DNA from: Pseudomonadota bacterium
GTDB taxonomy: Bacteria > Desulfobacterota > Desulfovibrionia > Desulfovibrionales > Desulfovibrionaceae
DNA length: 64,000 nt
Assembly (NCBI GenBank): GCA_018822105.1
Contig: JAHJLB010000049.1
Span: forward strand, 1 to 64,000
Direction of reading: 5' to 3'
Shown here: positions 41,475 through 60,517 of the stretch, piece by piece
Layout: each line of letters begins with the position of its first letter
Numbering within the stretch: the first letter of the stretch is position 1
Notes under the pieces: generated by a model
The model's input: the letters and a program-made list of their open reading frames with translations, nothing else
Databases searched by the model: none
What the model was told of the DNA's origin: nothing
Made by a program: the position numbers and the translations under genes

Positions 41475-41604
41475 TTTTCGGAGGGTTCTGGCGGCTTGAG
41501 CCCCCGGAGCCCAAAAGGTTCCGGGGGGTTGCTTGCTCTTCGGGCCGGAGTGCGCCGCAGGCTTTCGATGTTTCGCTTGCCCCTCGCGGTGCGGGTGGCG
41601 TAGG

Positions 41605-47181
<5,577 letters not shown>

Positions 47182-47380: not shown

Positions 47381-48837
<1,457 letters not shown>

Positions 48838-48841
<4 letters not shown>

Positions 48842-50199
48842 GCGCGGGCCGCGTGCTCGTGGTGGACGACGAGCCCATCGCCCGCGAGAATCTTGTCCAC
48901 GTCCTGGTGCGCGCGGGCTACGAGGCCGAACACGTTGCCGACTCCCGCGCGGCCCTGGCCGAGCTGGACCGCGCGCGCTACGACCTGATGCTCACGGACC
49001 TGCGCCTGGGTGAGCAGAGCGAACTGGACGGCATCGGGCTCATGGAGCGCGCGCGCAAGCTGCACCCCGGCCTGGAGGTCGTGGTCATGACCGGCTACGC
49101 CACCGTGCCCGGAGCCGTCACGGCCATGAACCGCGGGGCCTACTCCTACCTCGCCAAGCCCCTGAACATCGACGAGGTGCGCGCCCTCTCGGCCAAGGCC
49201 GTGGAGTCCAGCCGCCTGCGCCGCGAGGTCCTCGACCTGCGCCAGCGCCTGAAGGACCGCGACGCCCCGCCCATGCTGGTGGGCAAGAGCCCGGCCATGG
49301 CCGCGCTGCTGAAAACCATCGGCCAGGTGGCGCCCACGGCCTCCACCGTGCTCCTCCTGGGCGAAACCGGCACCGGCAAGGAGCTGGCCGCCCGGGCCAT
49401 CCACCACGCCAGCCAGCGCGCGGACAAGCGCTTCCTGGGCGTGAACTGCGGGGCCTTCAGCGAGGAGCTGCTGGCCGGGGAGCTCTTCGGACACGAAAAA
49501 GGGGCCTATACCGGGGCCAGCGAGCGCAAGGCCGGGCTCTTCGAGGCCGCGCACGGCGGCACCCTGTTTCTGGACGAGGTGGGCGAGATGACGCCCTCCA
49601 TGCAGGTGCGCCTGCTGCGCGTGCTTCAGGAGCGCAAGATCCTGCGCGTGGGCGGCACCACCGATATCCCCGTGGACGTGCGCGTCATCGCCGCCACCAA
49701 CAAGGATCTGGCCGTGGAGACCGAGACCGGGGCCTTCCGCCTGGACCTCTACTACCGCCTGAACGTCATCACCCTGCGCCTGCCGGCCCTGGCCGAGCGG
49801 CGCGAGGACATCCCGCTTCTGGCCCGGCACTTCCTGCTCAAATACTCCGAGCTCCTGGGCCGCGAGGTGCGCGAGCTCTCCCCCGAGGTGCTGGACATCC
49901 TGGCCAGCTACCCCTTCCCCGGCAACATCCGCGAGCTGGAAAACCTCATGGAGCGCGCCGTGGTCCTGGCCGAGGGCGACACCGTGGAGGCCCGGCACCT
50001 GCCCCCGGACCTGCAGCTGGACCAGCCGCGCCTGCGCACCTCGCGCCACGGCGGCCTGCCCACCCTGGAGGAGAACGAGCGCCAGCACATCCTCTGGGTG
50101 CTGGAGCAGACCGGCAACAACAAGTCCCGCGCCGCCGAGATCCTCGGCATCGACCGCGCGTCCCTCTGGCGCAAGCTCAAGCGCGCCGGGCTCAACTAG
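48838..50199 (+). CDS. Sigma-54-dependent response regulator
   Basis: 453 aa. Receiver 4-125 with Asp54 (LMLTDLRLG), AAA+ 145-380 with Walker A GETGTGKE (175-182), an intact sigma-54 loop GAYTGA (222-227), Walker B GTLFLDEVGE, and a Fis-type HTH at the C-terminus (NNKSRAAEILGIDRASLWRKL). It is a competent NtrC-type activator. Candidate targets are the TGTTGC-N5-GCAACA palindromes 2.2 kb downstream (inference). GTG start overlaps the kinase stop. Convergent with receiver-lon. Confidence 0.92.
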
Positions 50200-50259: not shown

Positions 50260-52290
50260 CTAGCTCTTCGGCTCCAGCACCACGTCCACCAGCTCATTGG
50301 CCTCGGTGGCCAGCACGATCTTCAGCTGCGAGCGGATGTCTGCCTCCAGGGCCTCGGCCTCGGGCCTGTTGCCTGCGGGCAGGGCCACGGTGTGCACGCC
50401 GCCGCGCAGCGCGGCCAAAACCTTTTCGCGGATGCCGGCCACGGGCAGGAGCACGCCGCCCAGGGACATCTCGCCGGTGAGGGCCACGCCGGGCCTGGCC
50501 GGGCGTCCGGTCAAGAGCGAGAGCAGGGCCATGAGGATGGTCACCCCGGCCGAGGGCCCGTCCTTGGGGATGGCCCCGGCCGGGATGTGGATGTGCAGGT
50601 CCTGCTGGGCGAAGAAGTCCGGGTTGAGGCCGAAGGTCTCGGCGTTGCCGCGGATGTAGGAGAGCGCGGTCTGGGCGGACTCCTTGAGCACGGCGCCGAG
50701 GTTGCCGGTGAGCAGGAGCTGGCCGGTGCCGCGCATGCGCGCCGCCTCCACCAGGACGATCTCGCCGCCGGAATCGCTCCAGACCAGGCCGTTGACCACG
50801 CCGGGGCGCGACACGGGCCGGGCGGACTCGTGGGTGTGGCGGCGGGGCCCCAGCAGGCTCGTCACCAGCGCGGGGTCGACGAGGGTCGGGTAGCTGCCCT
50901 GGGCGTTGCCGGCGGATTCCGGCTTCATGGCCAGGCGCGCCATCTTGCGGCACACGCTGCCGATTTCGCGGTCCAGGTTGCGCACGCCGGCCTCGCGCGT
51001 GTAGTCGCTGATGATGGTGCGCACGGCCTCTGGCGCGAAGACGGGGTAGGGGTGCGTGAGGCCGTGCTCGGCGCACTGGCGCGGCACCATGTGCTTGAGG
51101 GCGATCTGCACCTTTTCGGGCTCGGTGTAGCCGGGGAAGTGCACCACCTCCAGGCGGTCCTGCAGGGGCGCGTCGAGGCGGGAGAGGTCGTTGGCCGTGG
51201 CGATGAACATGACCTGGGACAGGTCAAAGGGCACGTCCACGTAGAGGTCCATGAACGAGCGGTTCTGCTCGGGGTCCAGCACCTCCAGGAACACCGCGCC
51301 GGGGTCGCCCCGGAAGTCCTGGCCGACCTTGTCGATCTCGTCGAGCATGAGCACGGGGTTGTTCACGCCCAGGCGCCGGATGGCCTGGATGATCTTGCCC
51401 GGCATGGCCCCGACGTAGGTGCGGCGGTGCCCGCGCAGCTCGGCCTCGTCGCGCATCCCGGCCATGGACATGCGGTGGAACTTGCGGCCCAGGGCCTCTG
51501 CGATGGCCATGCCGATGGAGGTCTTGCCCGTGCCCGGGGGGCCGGTGAAGCAGAGCACCGGGCCGCGCGCCGGGGCCAGCTTGACCCGCTTGCCCAGCAC
51601 GTCGCGCACGCTCTCGCGCAGGTGGTCCAGGCTGATGGGCTTGGTCAGGTAGTGGGCCGCGCCGGTGCGCATGGCCTCCACGGCGGAAGTCACCGTGGCG
51701 AAGCCGGTGACGATGATGATCTGCGTGCTGGGCGACAGCCGCCCGGCCTCGGCCAAAAGGGTCATGCCGTCCATCTTGTCCATCTTGAGGTCGGTGACGA
51801 TGAGGTCGAAGCTCCAGGCGCGCACCAGCTCCAGGGCCTCCAGGCCGTTGGCGGCGGTGCGCACGGCGTAGCCCTCCTTTTTCAGCACGTGCTCCAGGTT
51901 GGTGCGGGCGATCTCCTCGTCGTCGACCACGAGGACGTGCGGCGGGGCGCTGGCGGCCAGGGTGCGCCCGGCCAGGTATTCCAGCAGGCGCTCCTTGACG
52001 TGGTCCAGGCCGAAGTGCCGGTCGCTCAAAATGCGCTCCACGCGCGGGAAGTCCAGGCAGTCCTCGGTGGCGCTGGTCCAGGGCAGGCTGCTCAGCCAGT
52101 CGATGTAGTTGAGCCCGATGGAGTATTCGGCCACGGAGGGGTCGGTCTTGTCCAGCCGGCCCATCTCCTTGGCCACGATGGCCGCCACGGATTCCGGCAG
52201 GGCGGCGCCCTTCACCTGCCCGCGCAGCTCGTCCAGCCCCTTGCCAGTGCTGGGCGCCTGTTCTTCCTCGGGTTTGCGAAAAAATATCAT
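50260..52290 (-). CDS. Lon-type ATP-dependent protease with an inserted receiver domain
   Basis: 676 aa. Residues 1-110 are the end of the Lon helical region (NYIDWLSSLPW, HFGLDHVKERLLEYLAGR), while the usual N-terminal substrate-binding LON domain is missing. Residues 116-235 are a complete receiver: Asp123/Asp124, phospho-acceptor Asp167, Thr195, Lys217. Then Lon AAA+ resumes (Walker A GPPGTGKT 250-257, Walker B VLMLDEID) and the Ser-Lys protease domain (KDGPSAG with Ser580; Lys623). It is predicted to be a cytoplasmic protease gated by phosphorylation. AGGAGGA precedes ATG 52290. The receiver closely resembles that of the regulator at 48838. Confidence 0.92.
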   Translation of the reverse strand: MIFFRKPEEEQAPSTGKGLDELRGQVKGAALPESVAAIVAKEMGRLDKTDPSVAEYSIGLNYIDWLSSLPWTSATEDCLDFPRVERILSDRHFGLDHVKERLLEYLAGRTLAASAPPHVLVVDDEEIARTNLEHVLKKEGYAVRTAANGLEALELVRAWSFDLIVTDLKMDKMDGMTLLAEAGRLSPSTQIIIVTGFATVTSAVEAMRTGAAHYLTKPISLDHLRESVRDVLGKRVKLAPARGPVLCFTGPPGTGKTSIGMAIAEALGRKFHRMSMAGMRDEAELRGHRRTYVGAMPGKIIQAIRRLGVNNPVLMLDEIDKVGQDFRGDPGAVFLEVLDPEQNRSFMDLYVDVPFDLSQVMFIATANDLSRLDAPLQDRLEVVHFPGYTEPEKVQIALKHMVPRQCAEHGLTHPYPVFAPEAVRTIISDYTREAGVRNLDREIGSVCRKMARLAMKPESAGNAQGSYPTLVDPALVTSLLGPRRHTHESARPVSRPGVVNGLVWSDSGGEIVLVEAARMRGTGQLLLTGNLGAVLKESAQTALSYIRGNAETFGLNPDFFAQQDLHIHIPAGAIPKDGPSAGVTILMALLSLLTGRPARPGVALTGEMSLGGVLLPVAGIREKVLAALRGGVHTVALPAGNRPEAEALEADIRSQLKIVLATEANELVDVVLEPKS

Positions 52291-52411: not shown

Positions 52412-52428
52412 TGTTGCAATAGGCAACA
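52412..52428. promoter_or_regulatory. Palindromic operator 1 (TGTTGC-N5-GCAACA)
   Basis: Perfect palindrome with spacer AATAG in the divergent region between receiver-lon and the small operon. It has the form of an enhancer-binding protein site. A half-site TGTTGC lies at 52443. Confidence 0.75.
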
Positions 52429-52501: not shown

Positions 52502-52518
52502 TGTTGCGGCATGCAACA
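52502..52518. promoter_or_regulatory. Palindromic operator 2 (TGTTGC-N5-GCAACA)
   Basis: Second identical palindrome with spacer GGCAT, 90 bases (centre to centre) from operator 1 and about 85 bases before a candidate sigma-54 promoter, a normal upstream-activator distance. Confidence 0.75.
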
Positions 52519-52593: not shown

Positions 52594-52609
52594 CGGTACA
52601 GCCCTTGAA
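52594..52609 (+). promoter_or_regulatory. Weak candidate sigma-54 promoter of the Usp/TauE operon
   Basis: CGGTACA-GCCC-TTGAA keeps GG and TTG at the right ten-base spacing but has GA in place of GC at -12. The predicted start near 52620 leaves room for the GAGGGG ribosome site of the next gene. The remainder of the 358-base gene-free stretch 52291-52648 shows only the two palindromes. Confidence 0.4.
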
Positions 52610-52847: not shown

Positions 52848-53384
52848 ATGCGCAAGTCGACATCCAAAGTCCGCGAGAGCCTGTCCCTGGGCAGCAAGCC
52901 GGGAATCTCCCTGCAGCTGCGCGGCGGACTGCGCGAGGCCATGGAGACTTACGGCGAGGCCATCTCCATGGCCGAGTCCGGCGAGCTGGGCCTCGCCCGG
53001 GAGATCATGGGCGACTTCCACGCCGAGCACCGCAAGATCCTGGTGCTGGCGGAGGGAGACGGCGTGCCGGAGCCCATGGTCGCCTATGCGGTGAACCTGG
53101 CCGAGCGCCTGGGGTTTGACCTGGTGCTGCTGAGCGTGGGCCCGGCCTCCCGCAGCGGCTTGCGCTTCGAGGAGCGGACCCGCGCCGCCGGGCAGCCCCT
53201 GCTCGACGAGGCCGCCCGGCGCGGCGTGGCCTGCGCGCATCTTCTACGCCAGGGCCCCCGCGACGAGGTCCTGAACGCCGTGAGCGTGGAGCTCAGGCGG
53301 GTGGAGTTCGTCATCACCCGCAGGCCCGAGGCCGAAAGGCGGCATGCGGCGCTGACCGTTCCGGAGTTTTCGTTGAAATGCTGA
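52848..53384 (+). CDS. Universal-stress-protein-like nucleotide-binding fold protein
   Basis: 178 aa. Residues about 65-170 have the alternating beta/alpha layout of a UspA domain (KILVLAEGDG, VAYAVNLAERLGFDLVLLSVG), but the glycine-rich ATP loop GxxGS is not visible, so nucleotide binding is doubtful. The first 60 residues are a basic helix-rich extension. Start ATG 52848 after GGAG. Second gene of the operon leading to the TauE permease; may be a stress or regulatory partner of it. Confidence 0.6.
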   Translation: MRKSTSKVRESLSLGSKPGISLQLRGGLREAMETYGEAISMAESGELGLAREIMGDFHAEHRKILVLAEGDGVPEPMVAYAVNLAERLGFDLVLLSVGPASRSGLRFEERTRAAGQPLLDEAARRGVACAHLLRQGPRDEVLNAVSVELRRVEFVITRRPEAERRHAALTVPEFSLKC

Positions 53385-53463: not shown

Positions 53464-53760
53464 ATGGCTCATGAGATGACGAAGAAGCAGGCCGTGGTGC
53501 GGATGATCGGCTTTGGCGCGGCCAGCGCCGCCGTGTATGGCGCGATATTCTATTTCTCCAACCCCATCACCGAGATGTTCTCGCGCGGCGGGGTCTACGC
53601 CGCCATGCCCATCGCCACGGTGTTCCTGGTCTCCTACGTGCACGGAGGCTTTGCCTCCAACCTCTGGACGGCCCTCGGCATCAACGCCAGGCAGCCGGCC
53701 AAGACCCTGCAGCCCGCCGCAACCAAGCGCCCCGAAGTGCGCGCCACCCTGAACGCCTAA
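53464..53760 (+). CDS. Small two-helix membrane protein
   Basis: 98 aa. Two hydrophobic segments (about 13-33 and 43-60) joined by a short loop, with a soluble basic tail of about 30 residues. No family recognised. GGAGG precedes ATG 53464. It lies 28 bases before the permease gene, so it may be an accessory subunit of it. Confidence 0.7.
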   Translation: MAHEMTKKQAVVRMIGFGAASAAVYGAIFYFSNPITEMFSRGGVYAAMPIATVFLVSYVHGGFASNLWTALGINARQPAKTLQPAATKRPEVRATLNA

Positions 53761-53788: not shown

Positions 53789-54853
53789 ATGGACGTCGCA
53801 CTCGACACCCTGAAATTCATCGACCTGTCCACTTCCAGCATCATCTTCCTGTTCATCGTCGGCTTCATTGGCGGCCTGGTGAGCGGGTTCATCGGCTCCG
53901 GCGGGGCCTTTGTGCTCACCCCGGGCATGATGAGCCTGGGCGTCCCCGGCACCGTGGCCGTGGCCAGCAACATGTGCCACAAGTTCCCCAAGGCCCTGGT
54001 GGGCGCCATCAAGCGCTTCCGCTACGGCCAGGTGGACATCAAGCTCGGCCTGGTCATGGCCGTCAGCGCCGGCGTTGGCGTGCAGGTCGGCATCAAGCTC
54101 CAGCGGATGATCCTTGAAAAATGGGGCCAGTCCGGCTCCAACCTCTACGTGAGCCTGTCCTTTGTGGCCGTGCTGGTCCTGGTCGGCGGCTACGTCTTCT
54201 ACGACGCCATGACCGCCGACAAGGGCGGCAAGCCCAAGGCCGGCGCCACCCTGGCCCAGCGCCTGCAGAAGCTTGAGATCTGGCCCATGATGACCTTCAA
54301 GACCGCCGGGGTGCGCATCTCCATGTGGTTCACCATCCCCGTGGGCTTCGCCACCGGCATGCTGGCCGCCACCATCGCCGTGGGCGGCTTCGTGGGCGTG
54401 CCGGGCATGATCTACGTCATCGGCGCCAGCGGCCTCGTGGCCTCGGCCACGGAGCTGGTCATCGCCTTTGTCATGGGCCTGGGCGGCACCATCAACTGGG
54501 CCATGCACGGCATGGTCGACATCCGCCTCACCGTCATCATCCTGGCCGGGTCGCTCCTGGGCGTGCAGCTCGGCGCCATCGGAACCACCCTGGTCAAGGA
54601 ATCCATGATCAAGTTCGTCATGGGCTCCATCATGCTCATCGTGGCCATCTCCCGCGGCCTGGCCGTGCCCAAGTATCTGGCCGAGCTCGGCGTCATGGAC
54701 GTGGCCCCGGAGACCGTTGCCATCATGGACAAGGCCAGCTTCCTCATCATGTGCGCCGCCCTGACCTTCGGCGCGGTGATCATCCTGGGCAGCATGTACA
54801 AGGCCCGCAAGGCCAACGCCAAGCAGGACCGCGAGGCCTTCGGCCAGGCATAG
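53789..54853 (+). CDS. TauE/SafE-family permease
   Basis: 354 aa, about eight membrane helices. The N-terminal repeat FIGGLVSGFIGSGGAFVLTPGMM and the internal repeat FATGMLAATIAVGGFVGVPGMIY are the TauE/SafE double motif. Members export or import sulfite, sulfonates or other organic anions; the substrate is not defined here. A cytoplasmic loop of about 50 residues separates the two halves. AAGGAG precedes the ATG. Last gene of the operon, closed by a terminator. Confidence 0.88.
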   Translation: MDVALDTLKFIDLSTSSIIFLFIVGFIGGLVSGFIGSGGAFVLTPGMMSLGVPGTVAVASNMCHKFPKALVGAIKRFRYGQVDIKLGLVMAVSAGVGVQVGIKLQRMILEKWGQSGSNLYVSLSFVAVLVLVGGYVFYDAMTADKGGKPKAGATLAQRLQKLEIWPMMTFKTAGVRISMWFTIPVGFATGMLAATIAVGGFVGVPGMIYVIGASGLVASATELVIAFVMGLGGTINWAMHGMVDIRLTVIILAGSLLGVQLGAIGTTLVKESMIKFVMGSIMLIVAISRGLAVPKYLAELGVMDVAPETVAIMDKASFLIMCAALTFGAVIILGSMYKARKANAKQDREAFGQA

Positions 54854-55955: not shown

Positions 55956-56849
55956 ATGCGCATCCCCACCTTTCCTTTGGTTCTTCGTCTCCTGCTGCTC
56001 GCCGTCCTGGCGTTGCCTCTGGCACTGCCCGATATGGCCCAGGCTGGGCACAAGGCTCCGGACAAGCGCGGCATCCTGCTCGTGGCCTTCGGCACCAGTG
56101 TGCCCGAGGCCGTCAGCGCCATCGACGCCCTGAAACAGCAGACAGAGGCCGCCTTCCCCGGCGTCCCCGTGCGCATGGCCTATTCGTCCAAGATCATCCG
56201 CGACAAGATTGCCGGGGAAGGAGTCACTAAAAAATCCCCAGCCCAGGCCCTGGCCGACATGGCCGCCGAGGGCTTCACTGAGGTCGCCGTGCAGTCCCTG
56301 CACGCCATCCCCGGCCGCGAGTATTCCGACATCAAGGCCACGGCCGAGGCCTTTCAGGCCATGCCCAAGGGGATTAGGAAGGTCACAGTGGGCCGCCCCC
56401 TGCTCTATTCCCACGAGGACATCGCCAAAGCCGCCGAGGCCATCCTGCTCTCCCTGCCCAAATACAAGAAGGGTGCGGCCGTGTTGCTCATGGGCCATGG
56501 CACGGACCACCCGGCCAACGCCGCCTACGCCGCCCTGCAACTGGCCCTGTGGAAGCATGACCAGAGCGTCTTCATCGCCACAGTGGAGGGCACTCCCGGC
56601 CTGGACGAGATCATCCCGGTGCTCAAGCGCCAGGGAGTGCGGGCAGCGCACCTCGTGCCCCTCATGAGCGTTGCTGGCGACCACGCCCTCAACGACATGG
56701 CTGGCAAGGACGATGATTCCTGGGCCTCCAAGCTCAAGACTGCGGGCATCGCCAGCACCCCCGTGCTGGTGGGCCTGGGCAGCCGCCCAGCCGTGGCAGG
56801 ACTGTGGATCGACCACCTGCGCGATGCGGTGAAGGAACTCGGAGAATAG
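55956..56849 (+). CDS. cbiK: Periplasmic sirohydrochlorin cobaltochelatase CbiK
   Basis: 297 aa. A signal peptide (LRLLLLAVLALPLALPDMAQA, given here as residues about 10-30) is followed by the CbiK chelatase fold: LLVAFGTSVPEAVSAID near 42, VQSLHAIPGREY with metal-binding His, LLMGHGTDHPAN with the second His, and VPLMSVAGDHALNDMAG near the C-terminus. The enzyme inserts Co2+ (or Fe2+) into sirohydrochlorin. A periplasmic version with heme binding is known in Desulfovibrio vulgaris, where a transport role was suggested. GGAGG precedes ATG 55956; control is by the B12 riboswitch. Confidence 0.93.
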   Translation: MRIPTFPLVLRLLLLAVLALPLALPDMAQAGHKAPDKRGILLVAFGTSVPEAVSAIDALKQQTEAAFPGVPVRMAYSSKIIRDKIAGEGVTKKSPAQALADMAAEGFTEVAVQSLHAIPGREYSDIKATAEAFQAMPKGIRKVTVGRPLLYSHEDIAKAAEAILLSLPKYKKGAAVLLMGHGTDHPANAAYAALQLALWKHDQSVFIATVEGTPGLDEIIPVLKRQGVRAAHLVPLMSVAGDHALNDMAGKDDDSWASKLKTAGIASTPVLVGLGSRPAVAGLWIDHLRDAVKELGE

Positions 56850-56996
56850 CCCGGACTTGGCAGAGGAAGGGCCAGCGCGCGCAAGGCCGCGCTGCCCTGC
56901 TTCTGCCTATGGCTGATCTGTCCGGAGCAGTGGCGCCCTGCGCCCTGGACGGCCCCACAGCCAATGTATTCCCGAAAGCATCCAAGGAGGACATCT

Positions 56997-57971
56997 ATGC
57001 TGCGGACATCCACATGGCCCAGCCCCCTGCCATCGGCGCGTCCCAAGCGCATCTGGCACCTGGCGCTGGCCCTCGTGCTGCTCTGTTCGTCTCAAGCTCG
57101 GGCGGATATCAGCGTCACCGACGACCAGGGCCAGACCATCGTCCTGGCACGCCCGGCTCAGCGCGTCATTGCGCTCTACGGCGCGCTCAACGAAATCCTG
57201 GACGGCCTGGGCCAGACCAGCCGCATCGTGGCGCGCGCCAATGCGGACGAAACGCCCGCGCGCATCACAAAGCTGCCGAGCATCGGCACGCACAGACGAC
57301 CGAACATCGAGGCCGTGCTGGCCCAGAAGCCCGACCTGGTGCTGCAAATGGCTGGCCGCAAGGAGACCTCCCAGTCTGTGGAAGCGCTCAAGAAACACGG
57401 GGTGCGCGTGGCCGTGTTCCGGGCGTCGAGCTTCACAGAGTTGTTCAGCATCATCCGCCGCGTGGGTGCGCTCACCGGAGCGGATGCCCAGGCCGAAGAC
57501 ATGGTGCGCGGTATGGAGACGCGGCTTGCGGCGCTGGATGCGAGGATAGCGAACACGGCGGAGCGCCCGCGTGTCTTCTTCGAGGTGCATTCGCCAAACA
57601 TGTATGGGGCCGGGCAATCAAGCGTCGTGGCGGAGATCATCAACCATGCAGGAGGCGTCAACTGCGTGGAAGAGCGCGTCCAGTTCGCGCACCTGAGCGA
57701 GGAGGAACTCATGCGGCTCAAGCCAGAGGCCTACCTCATCCAGCGCGGCCCCATGAACCGCTCCCCGCTACCGCTCACGGCACGCCCACGCCTGCGCACC
57801 CTGCCCGCCACCCAGAGCGGCCGGGCCTGGTTCGTGGACGAACTGAAGTACTCGCGTCCAGGCCCGCGCAACGTCGATGCAGCCGAGGAACTGGCCGGAC
57901 TGCTGCACCCGGAACTCGTAAACCAAGGCGTCAAGCCCCCCAAGGACTCCAAGCATAAGAACAAGAAATAA
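56997..57971 (+). CDS. Periplasmic corrinoid/iron-chelate binding protein (BtuF/FecB type)
   Basis: 324 aa. Signal peptide about 18-38 (ending QARA), then a class III periplasmic binding protein: VTDDQGQTIVLARPAQRVIALYG is split over the first strand, NIEAVLAQKPDLVLQM near 95-110, and GGVNCVEERVQFAHLSEEELMRLKPEAYLI in the second lobe. A Lys-rich tail closes it. ATG 56997 follows AAGGAGG. It probably shares the cbiK transcript and captures cobalamin, a precursor or heme for an ABC permease such as the FecCD gene at 63417. Confidence 0.85.
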   Translation: MLRTSTWPSPLPSARPKRIWHLALALVLLCSSQARADISVTDDQGQTIVLARPAQRVIALYGALNEILDGLGQTSRIVARANADETPARITKLPSIGTHRRPNIEAVLAQKPDLVLQMAGRKETSQSVEALKKHGVRVAVFRASSFTELFSIIRRVGALTGADAQAEDMVRGMETRLAALDARIANTAERPRVFFEVHSPNMYGAGQSSVVAEIINHAGGVNCVEERVQFAHLSEEELMRLKPEAYLIQRGPMNRSPLPLTARPRLRTLPATQSGRAWFVDELKYSRPGPRNVDAAEELAGLLHPELVNQGVKPPKDSKHKNKK

Positions 57972-58021
57972 TCCGCCGGGGCACCCGGCCTAGCATCGGC
58001 GATGGAGGTGGGCGGGTTGTT

Positions 58022-58468
58022 TTAGCGAACGTCCCTGTCCTTGTCCTCGCCCTTCTGTTCGTCGGTCGCCTTGGCCACGATGCCGAGCTTCTCGATGCCC
58101 ACGCTCTTGATCTCGCCCATGACCTTGACCACCACGCCGTAGGCCACGTTTTTGTCGGCGCGTAGGTACAGCTGCTTGTGCTGGCTGACCACCAGGTTCT
58201 GCAGGTGCTGGCGCAGGTCGTCGAAGGGTACGCCGTACTCGTCGAGGAAGATCGAGCCGTCCTTTTTGACCGAGAGCACCAGATGGTCGCTGCCAGCGGG
58301 CAGGGTGCGCACGCTGCGGGTCTTGGGCAGGTCCACGTCCACGCCCTGCGTCAGCATGGGCGCGGTGACCATGAAGATGATGAGCAGCACCAGCATCACG
58401 TCCACAAAGGGCGTGACGTTGATCTCGGCCATGTAGCCGCGAGAGCCTTTGCCAAGCGACATACCCAC
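58022..58468 (-). CDS. exbD: ExbD/TolR-family energy transducer
   Basis: 148 aa. One N-terminal membrane helix with the essential Asp: AEINVTPFVDVMLVLLIIFMV (Asp near 23), then a periplasmic ExbD domain and a charged tail. With ExbB it converts proton flow to TonB motion. GTG 58468 or ATG 58462 are possible starts. Lies 11 bases after exbB. Convergent with the binding protein gene. Confidence 0.92.
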   Translation of the reverse strand: MGMSLGKGSRGYMAEINVTPFVDVMLVLLIIFMVTAPMLTQGVDVDLPKTRSVRTLPAGSDHLVLSVKKDGSIFLDEYGVPFDDLRQHLQNLVVSQHKQLYLRADKNVAYGVVVKVMGEIKSVGIEKLGIVAKATDEQKGEDKDRDVR

Positions 58469-58479
58469 GGCGCGCCCGA

Positions 58480-59181
58480 CTAGCCCTTGGAGCCGGAGGT
58501 CCAGGAGACCTCGCGCTCCACGCGGTTCAGGAAGGCCCCGGCAAAGTTTACCAGCTCTGTCTCCACCTCGCCCAATAGGGCCAACAGATAGTTGTAGGCG
58601 ATGGTGGCCGGGATGGCGACGACAAGCCCAATGGCCGTGGTGACGAGCGCCTCAGAGATGCCGGGGGCCACGGTTGCCAGGGCTGCCGACTGCGACAGGC
58701 CGATGGAGTGGAAGGCGTGCATGATGCCCCAGACCGTGCCGAAGAGCCCGATGAAGGGCGCAGCGTTGGCGCAGGTGGCGAGAAAGGACAGGGAGTTTGA
58801 GAGGCGCTTCATCTCCCCGTTGACGCCCTGGCGCAGGACGCGCCGGAGGGTGTCCTTCACGAGCATGCGCTTGCGGTCGCGCTCGATGTCGGCCTTCTCC
58901 AGCTTGCGGAACTCGCCCACGGCGAGCAGGCCCACGCGCGACAGGGCGGTGTCGCCGTCGCGGCGGACGGCCTGCAAGCCTTCGGACAGGTCCTCCGCGT
59001 CGTTGAACAGGACGTAGCCCTGGGACACCTGGCGCCTGGTGCGCTTGTACAGGATGACCTTGTGGAAGATGATGGTCCAGCTCCACAGGGACATGAGCGC
59101 CAGCATGGCCAGCACTATCTGCACCCCCAGGGTGGCCCCGAGCATCATGCCTAGAAGACCGGTTTCAGGAATCATGCGCAT
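58480..59181 (-). CDS. exbB: ExbB/TolQ-family proton channel
   Basis: 233 aa with three membrane helices (about 12-35, 125-150, 165-190). CANAAPFIGLFGTVWGIMHAF and GISEALVTTAIGLVVAIPATIAYN are the MotA/TolQ/ExbB signatures (quoted to mark their place near 130 and 170). ATG 59181 was chosen because GGAG lies five bases before it; the longer frame needs a TTG inside that ribosome site. Operates with ExbD and the TonB at 59693. Confidence 0.92.
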   Translation of the reverse strand: MRMIPETGLLGMMLGATLGVQIVLAMLALMSLWSWTIIFHKVILYKRTRRQVSQGYVLFNDAEDLSEGLQAVRRDGDTALSRVGLLAVGEFRKLEKADIERDRKRMLVKDTLRRVLRQGVNGEMKRLSNSLSFLATCANAAPFIGLFGTVWGIMHAFHSIGLSQSAALATVAPGISEALVTTAIGLVVAIPATIAYNYLLALLGEVETELVNFAGAFLNRVEREVSWTSGSKG

Positions 59182-59193
59182 TGTCTCCAATGG

Positions 59194-59220
59194 CTGGCGG
59201 CGTTTGGAATACGCCGCCAG
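59194..59220 (-). terminator. Intercistronic hairpin upstream of exbB
   Basis: Perfect 10-bp stem CTGGCGGCGT / ACGCCGCCAG with a seven-base loop, just after the periplasmic protein gene and before the exbB ribosome site. No T run; probably an mRNA processing or stability element. Confidence 0.65.
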
Positions 59221-59232
59221 CTCCTTCGCTTG

Positions 59233-59643
59233 CTACAGCATGGCCTTGTGCGGGTGCTTCTTGTGCCACAGTGGAACGTAAACCCCAGTCTCCTTGAGCA
59301 GCTTCGCGCGCAGGGCGGCTTTCTCCTGCAAGAGCTTGCCGTCCAATTCGCCCAGGCTCCGGGTCAGTTCAGCCACGGCCTCGCCCGAGGCGCCCTTGGA
59401 CAGCTGCGCGTCCAACTCCGCTGCCTTGGCGTGGTAGTCCTTTTGGATGGGCTCTACGGCCTTCTGGTAGTCTTCGTAGAGCTTCTTGGCCACGGGCCGT
59501 TTCTCCGGCGGAATGCCGGGCAGCTCGTAGAACTTCCCGTGGACCGTATCGGGTTTCTTCGTTTCGGCGGCCACAGAAGGCGCGGCGGACACGGCGGCAA
59601 ACACTGCGAACAGGGCCAGGATCACTACAAAACGTGCGGTCAT
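59233..59643 (-). CDS. Small periplasmic helical protein (ZraP/CpxP-like)
   Basis: 136 aa. Signal peptide (VVILALFAVFAAVSAAPSVAA, residues about 5-25), then a helical, charged region with KRPVAKKLYEDYQKAVEPIQ and a His-rich end WHKKHPHKAML. The layout resembles periplasmic metal-sensing chaperones of the Spy/CpxP/ZraP group. Metal binding by the C-terminal histidines is plausible. GGAGG precedes ATG 59643. It lies between tonB and exbB, so a link to metal or chelate uptake is inferred. Confidence 0.7.
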   Translation of the reverse strand: MTARFVVILALFAVFAAVSAAPSVAAETKKPDTVHGKFYELPGIPPEKRPVAKKLYEDYQKAVEPIQKDYHAKAAELDAQLSKGASGEAVAELTRSLGELDGKLLQEKAALRAKLLKETGVYVPLWHKKHPHKAML

Positions 59644-59692
59644 GGGAGTTCCTCCAGGTTGAATGTTGTCGGGCAATATGATTCGTGATCCG

Positions 59693-60517
59693 TCATCGGT
59701 CCTCCAAGGCAAACCGCACCGGCAGGGTCATCCACACCCCCACGGGCGCGCCCTTGAACACGGCTGGCTCGAAACGCCATTTGCGGGCGGCCTCCACGGC
59801 GGCGTCCTCGAATATGCCGGACGGCTCGGCACGCTCCACATTGACCTCGCGCACGCCGCCTTCCACATCCACGAAGAGCCGCAGCAACACCTGCCCGGAG
59901 ATACCGCGCCGCCGTGCATCCATGGGGTAGACCGGCTTGATGCGCCGCGCCACCACAGGCATGCGATCCACGGCCACGCCGCCCTGGCCGGTGCCGCTGC
60001 CCGCAGATGTCCCCACGCCTTTTCCCTGGCCGCCTCCAGAGCCGCCGCCGGAGCCCTTTCCGGCCCCTTGGCCGCCGCTGCCCGTAATCGCTTCCGGCTG
60101 GCTCACGACGGATGCCGTGGCGGGTGCAGCCGTGGAGGTGGTGGGCTGCGGCGCGGCTGCCTTGGCCAGAAGATTCGGCACAGCCACGGACCGGGGTTTC
60201 GGGCAGGGGGCGGCTTGGGCCTTGGCGGAGGGAAGCGCCTGGGCCGGACAGCCGCCGCCTCCCTTGGGGCCAGGGATTTCCACGAACTCCACCTCCACCA
60301 GCGTGGGCGTGGCCGGAAGCGCCATTGTCATCCTCGTGGCGGTAAGCGCGCCGAAAACAACCACATGCGTGGCGAGAGACAGCCACAGGGCAATGTTGCG
60401 AACCCGTACGGTCTTGCCCTTCAGGCCGGGCAGGCACAGGCACGAAGGCTTACTGTAGACGGTGCCGCCCTCGGGCAGGGCGTGGGAGGCCGGGTGCAGG
60501 CACTCCAAGGAATCCAT
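59693..60517 (-). CDS. tonB: TonB energy transducer
   Basis: 274 aa. One membrane anchor about 38-60 (NIALWLSLATHVVVFGALTA), a Pro/Ala then Gly/Ser-rich spacer about 80-185 that includes a cysteine pair, and a TonB C-terminal domain about 190-274 (YPMDARRRGISGQVLLRLFV, KWRFEPAVFKG). It carries proton-motive energy from ExbBD to an outer-membrane receptor, none of which is in the window. ATG 60517 was chosen as the nearest start before the anchor. The glycine-rich spacer is unusual against the Pro-Glu/Pro-Lys spacer of E. coli TonB. Confidence 0.88.
   Translation of the reverse strand: MDSLECLHPASHALPEGGTVYSKPSCLCLPGLKGKTVRVRNIALWLSLATHVVVFGALTATRMTMALPATPTLVEVEFVEIPGPKGGGGCPAQALPSAKAQAAPCPKPRSVAVPNLLAKAAAPQPTTSTAAPATASVVSQPEAITGSGGQGAGKGSGGGSGGGQGKGVGTSAGSGTGQGGVAVDRMPVVARRIKPVYPMDARRRGISGQVLLRLFVDVEGGVREVNVERAEPSGIFEDAAVEAARKWRFEPAVFKGAPVGVWMTLPVRFALEDR

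Follow-up and report, generated by a model that had tools for sequence, protein, structure and literature searches.

A predicted response regulator with a Lon protease output in a Desulfovibrionaceae genome, and its likely partner genes

Domain composition of RR-Lon and position of the receiver

Bacteria steer proteases through separate adaptor response regulators, and the locus described here raises the question of what a receiver domain might do when it is built into the protease itself. The locus lies in a stretch of 64,000 nucleotides from a member of the Desulfovibrionaceae (hereafter the window; positions 1 to 64,000 of contig JAHJLB010000049.1, GenBank assembly GCA_018822105.1). On its reverse strand, a gene with an ATG start (50260..52290) encodes a 676-amino-acid protein that reads as a response regulator whose output domain is a Lon protease, of the kind described for DVU3303 of Desulfovibrio vulgaris; we call it RR-Lon. 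Pfam searches identified a Response_reg domain (residues 119-228, 2.6e-29), followed by AAA (246-383, 8e-23), Lon_lid (408-457) and Lon_C (472-672, 3.6e-68). The NCBIfam model TIGR00763 'lon' matched the whole protein with 646.1 bits, above its cut-off of 608.05, while RssB and CpdR appeared among the matches of the receiver. Solved Lon structures aligned with RR-Lon in two blocks (query residues 20-113 and 241-670, best E values to 1e-151), the receiver being the gap between them. A preliminary description of this DNA, made from the letters alone, had proposed a Lon protease carrying an intact inserted receiver, and this reading was confirmed.

The protein opens with the Lon 3-helix segment and the HxGL helix (96-114) that begins the AAA+ module (residues 19-114, 51949..52236), as delimited by homology to solved Lons and by the secondary structure of a model. 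The inserted receiver follows (residues 117-236, 51583..51942), and then come the AAA+ core with its lid (residues 242-457, 50920..51567) and the Lon protease domain with the dyad Ser580/Lys623 (residues 472-672, 50275..50877), all encoded on the reverse strand and supported by Pfam and by conservation in 54 members. The receiver contains the acidic pair (D123/D124), the phospho-acceptor aspartate (D167), the Thr/Ser position (T195) and the lysine (K217) of response regulators. Likewise, a residue check in the 54-member alignment found the AAA+ motifs and the Ser-Lys dyad intact, with Walker A at 250-257, the pore loop at Y292/V293, Walker B at D317/E318, sensor 1 at N367, the Arg finger at R379 and sensor 2 at R437. 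D167, T195, K217, Ser580 and Lys623 were each located exactly where they had originally been placed.

In order to define the insertion point, we combined the alignment with a structure prediction (26-row alignment, mean pLDDT 81.7, pTM 0.64). The spacing between two Lon landmarks (residues 108 and 245) was 136 residues in 51 of the 54 RR-Lon members versus 10 in canonical Lons. The predicted structure showed an unbroken helix at 96-114, the receiver running from a strand at 118-122 to a helix at 221-236, and a strand at 245-249 leading into Walker A. In established Lon anatomy, the HxGL helix belongs to the AAA+ large subdomain. According to the model, the receiver thus interrupts the AAA+ module, entering after the HxGL helix (96-114) and ending before the beta-strand to Walker A (245-249), rather than occupying a hinge between the helical and AAA+ domains, where it had first been assigned. 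The Lon portion of the model matched chains of hexameric Lons, the best being LonA 4ypl_F (TM 0.87 by target length), suggesting that the subunit fold is undisturbed by the insertion; this match does not show that six receivers fit round the ring.

The N-terminal end of RR-Lon also differed from that of canonical Lons. Pfam gave no match to a LON N-domain, and homology to solved Lons started at approximately residue 19, at the 3-helix segment. The two canonical full-length Lons of the same genome, encoded by genes separate from RR-Lon, had about 180 residues of open frame before this segment, even in clipped loci. The absence of the LON domain, already noticed in the preliminary description, was borne out by an open reading frame that starts at the 3-helix segment. 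Because this domain is absent, RR-Lon is, by its sequence, a Lon-family protease but no standard LonA.

Distribution and single origin of the RR-Lon family

A profile built from 26 RR-Lon members was used to search other genomes. The architecture was present, without internal stops, in 107 out of 297 genomes of the same class, including the genome studied here (104 matches at or near full length and three partial ones that still spanned the receiver), and in 48 out of 395 genomes of a phylum-wide sample. Homologues with the same insertion, which the preliminary description had proposed to look for, are therefore numerous, and the sequencing join error that it had considered is ruled out by the recurrence of the architecture in more than 100 genomes. 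Since these uninterrupted genes also form a single clade, the chance that assembly or annotation artificially fused a Lon and a response regulator is vanishingly small. Specifically, in a tree built on the Lon part alone (FastTree), 53 RR-Lon members grouped as one clade apart from nine canonical Lons with a local support of 99. D167, K217, S580 and K623 were conserved in all 54 members, and T195 in 53, the remaining one carrying a Ser. Walker A K256/T257, Walker B D317 and the Arg finger R379 were invariant, while the other ATPase residues varied in one of the 54 sequences only, with the exception of pore-loop position 293.

Some individual cases were observed separately. The RR-Lon of locus L158 (G019:C97:15200-26900; the same gene as L032) carries Y292N, E318D, N367S and R437L (window numbering) and keeps D167, S580 and K623; judging from these residues, it is possibly a decaying or ATPase-impaired member. 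An RR-Lon-like match at G305:C11:21440-22729 (E 2e-225), which starts after the receiver in a 477-amino-acid frame, is a candidate truncated or receiver-less member. Loci L049-L052, considered as receiver-less short Lons, were rejected, as they encode ordinary full-length Lons. We also rejected the replacement of the housekeeping Lon by RR-Lon, as this genome and nearly all other carriers also keep canonical Lons. Among Pseudomonadota, RR-Lon was found in 0 out of 398 genomes at a strict threshold, which is not evidence of absence because the search had no positive control and because, according to PMC3333781, Thioalkalivibrio and Dechloromonas have the pair. The viral contigs searched yielded canonical Lons or distant AAA+ proteins and no RR-Lon.

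Likely partner genes, receiver kinship and the predicted target promoter

RR-Lon is convergent to two genes on the forward strand. One encodes a sensor histidine kinase (47381..48841; HAMP, HisKA and HATPase_c by Pfam) and the other an NtrC-family sigma54 activator (48838..50199; receiver, Sigma54_activat with GAYTGA, and Fis-type helix-turn-helix), which is the partner DNA-binding response regulator. Divergent from RR-Lon, and also on the forward strand, lies an operon encoding a 178-amino-acid universal-stress-protein (USP)-like protein (52848..53384; weak Usp match, under the Pfam cut-off), a putative 98-amino-acid membrane protein conserved in the operon (53464..53760; no Pfam family) and a TauE/SafE-family anion transporter (53789..54853), which corresponds to the D. 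vulgaris target transporter of PMC10102598. The preliminary description had overlooked both the partner regulator and the divergent target operon as components of the system. In other loci across the phylum, the kinase and the NtrC regulator were both near RR-Lon in 40 out of 53, the USP-like gene in 41 and the transporter in 32, several of the exceptions being contig ends. Within the genus, all 11 genomes with the kinase also carried RR-Lon, two genomes (G001 and G009, 99% complete) lacked both RR-Lon and a kinase orthologue, and two incomplete genomes had RR-Lon near a contig end and no kinase. Kinase and RR-Lon are, hence, present or absent together in the genus wherever assemblies are complete.

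The two receivers of the system also appeared to be related. In a tree of 119 columns, in which all the unrelated receivers came from this genome (34 of approximately 80), 53 out of 54 RR-Lon receivers grouped with the partner NtrC receivers and apart from those 34 (support 84/80). In the alpha1 region, the kinase-binding face and the main contributor to kinase specificity, the mean identity of RR-Lon receivers to those of their own NtrC partners was 50% (62% for the pair of this genome), compared with 18% against other receivers. The simplest history suggested by these sequences would be a single duplication of the receiver and its insertion into a Lon whose N-domain was lost either before or afterwards. 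At one locus (L181, G338:C1:1864600-1882600), the RR-Lon receiver nests among the partner NtrC receivers and the Lon part falls inside the RR-Lon clade; this receiver may be a later replacement or gene conversion. Based on synteny, co-occurrence and receiver kinship, the kinase at 47381 is the likely phosphodonor of RR-Lon.

The DNA between RR-Lon and the USP-like gene contained the only two perfect TGTTGCN5GCAACA palindromes of the window. The first, TGTTGCAATAGGCAACA (52412..52428), is a predicted, probable binding site of the partner regulator, and TGTTGCGGCATGCAACA (52502..52518) is the predicted second site of the pair. They are followed by a sigma54-like -24/-12 element, CGGTACAGCCCTTGAA (52594..52609, forward strand), facing the USP operon, with 3 mismatches here versus 0-2 in nearly all other loci. 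Perfect palindromes occurred 14 times in the 38.5 kb of DNA upstream of RR-Lon genes versus none in 832 kb elsewhere, and those with at most one mismatch 46 times versus 5, counts that are not independent because some loci come from close relatives and one locus is duplicated. The order of palindrome pair and sigma54-like element facing the USP/transporter operon was found in 45 out of 54 loci, with a pair spacing most often of 86-92 bp and the sigma54-like element mostly 90-94 bp further on. Single sigma54-like sites are weak, since up to 3 mismatches were allowed within a 100-bp zone, but the near-constant spacing is not. The paired palindromes, at a near-constant distance before the element, are consistent with paired enhancer sites of the NtrC partner.

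Two further features of the window were observed. Directly upstream of the kinase, a gene on the forward strand (41533-47181) encodes a hybrid kinase of 1882 amino acids that combines an extracellular solute-binding domain and many PAS domains with HisKA, HATPase and a receiver. At 55956-60443, a CbiK-type cobaltochelatase gene precedes genes reading like a periplasmic binding protein and ExbB/ExbD/TonB; CbiK alone is Pfam-confirmed, and the region resembles a cluster for the uptake of corrins or metals.

Proposed mechanism and comparison with known systems

Proteins of this kind are already known. According to Rajeev et al. 2011 (PMC3333781), DVU3303-3305 of D. vulgaris were named a possible three-component system, a lon protease was noted in the response regulator DVU3303, phosphorylation was suggested to be possibly necessary for its protease activity, and the targets were DVU3298-3302, including UspA-type and membrane proteins. 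DVU3305 is given as a sigma54 activator of this target operon in PMC4641369. In 2023, the kinase, the DNA-binding response regulator and the Lon response regulator showed pairwise cofitness above 0.9, all three genes being detrimental in chlorate (their loss was beneficial), where the target transporter DVU3299 was needed (PMC10102598). The first description of DVU3303-3305 dates from 2011 and their cofitness link from 2023, which makes the system of the window a further member, and not the new kind of output lacking any characterised example that had been supposed initially. Our literature search for other receiver-Lon fusions found nothing past the Desulfovibrio papers. The insertion topology, the single origin and the receiver kinship, not stated in the passages of those papers that were consulted, are added here, together with the promoter anatomy.

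Judged on its sequence, RR-Lon is best read as a receiver-controlled Lon. We consider it fairly probable that it is a response regulator with proteolysis as output, in which one kinase phosphorylates two receivers, producing two outputs, and the receiver acts as an allosteric switch on Lon. The membrane sensor kinase (47381) would probably phosphorylate both D167 of RR-Lon and the receiver of the adjacent NtrC-type activator. The phosphorylated activator would then turn on the USP/TauE anion-transporter operon, so that one stress signal would yield both transcription of this operon and a switched, specialised Lon. Beside the nucleotide site, the phosphorylated receiver would most likely change the ATPase or the hexamer competence of RR-Lon allosterically, because it is tethered at both ends (HxGL helix and P-loop strand) by linkers of invariant length. 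A more specific version, to which we give a little less than an even chance, holds that the receiver belongs to the structure of the ATPase core, so that its phosphorylation on the aspartate directly gates either ATP hydrolysis or the assembly of the ring. In this version, a single kinase would drive two sister receivers, one on a sigma54 activator and one inside a protease, and the resulting division of the response between transcription and proteolysis would have arisen once, when a receiver was duplicated and inserted into Lon.

The direction of such a switch is more likely activation than inhibition. Receivers of NtrC-family proteins can repress AAA+ modules in either state, which would be compatible with an RR-Lon that is an active protease when unphosphorylated and is switched off by the kinase signal. 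Direct phosphorylation of Ser654 also lowers proteolysis by the canonical Lon of Xanthomonas citri (PMC5784255). However, the same-direction D. vulgaris genetics fit kinase and RR-Lon acting together, and we regard inhibition as unlikely; the sequence data presented here do not discriminate the sign. Similarly improbable is that the receiver serves as a docking platform which, once phosphorylated, pairs with the sister NtrC receiver (or with the kinase) and delivers the activator to the protease, creating negative feedback. The usual substrate-binding domain is indeed missing, and the closeness of the RR-Lon receiver to that of its partner makes mixed receiver pairs plausible, but destruction of the activator is disfavoured because loss of kinase, activator or RR-Lon caused the same phenotype in D. 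vulgaris, while an opposite sign would be expected, barring polarity. Finally, competition for the same kinase would be expected of a receiver that descends from or with the partner's, in line with a phosphate sink or timer uncoupled from a constitutive Lon part. A mere sink would need neither insertion into the ATPase core with invariant linkers (51/54) nor conserved catalytic residues, and this explanation is very unlikely.

Several points weigh against a receiver-controlled Lon as proposed above. The missing LON N-domain leaves substrate recognition by RR-Lon unexplained, and our literature search for its enzymology (phosphotransfer, ATPase or protease activity) found none. Support for the receiver grouping is moderate, given the number of columns and receivers sampled, and the structure model, built from a shallow alignment, represents a monomer and bears on the subunit fold only. 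In addition, the cofitness in D. vulgaris could include polar effects, because DVU3303-3305 are presented as one operon.

If the proposal is true, a receiver wired into the Lon motor would let a two-component system act directly through proteolysis. About a tenth of the sampled genomes of the phylum carry the family, for which a genetic phenotype exists in a model sulfate reducer. It is also a compact case, open to experiment, of how the insertion of a domain could place a housekeeping AAA+ machine under the control of a signal. RssB and CpdR exemplify two-component control of regulated proteolysis through adaptor response regulators; they are separate adaptors for ClpXP, whereas the receiver of RR-Lon is part of the protease. 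In NtrC-family regulators, a receiver likewise controls an AAA+ ATPase, and the nearest receiver to that of RR-Lon is that of its NtrC neighbour; however, theirs is appended N-terminally and the output is transcription, while that of RR-Lon is inserted, tethered at both ends and linked to a protease. Canonical LonA (E. coli, B. subtilis, M. taiwanensis and human LONP1) shares the 3-helix segment, the AAA+ module, the lid and the Ser-Lys protease domain with RR-Lon, which differs by the missing LON N-domain and by the receiver, approximately 120 residues long, that interrupts its AAA+ module. The Lon of X. citri also bears a phosphorylation switch, but on a Ser of the protease domain, with no receiver and no histidine kinase. 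The closest counterpart is the three-component system of D. vulgaris Hildenborough (kinase DVU3304, regulator DVU3305 and DVU3303), with which the window shares, by published description, a histidine kinase, a sigma54-type response regulator and a Lon-output response regulator encoded together. As in DVU3298-3302, compared on the same basis, UspA-type, membrane and anion-transporter genes are present, here with conserved predicted regulator sites. Unlike DVU3303-3305, described as one operon, RR-Lon of the window is convergent to the kinase/NtrC pair.
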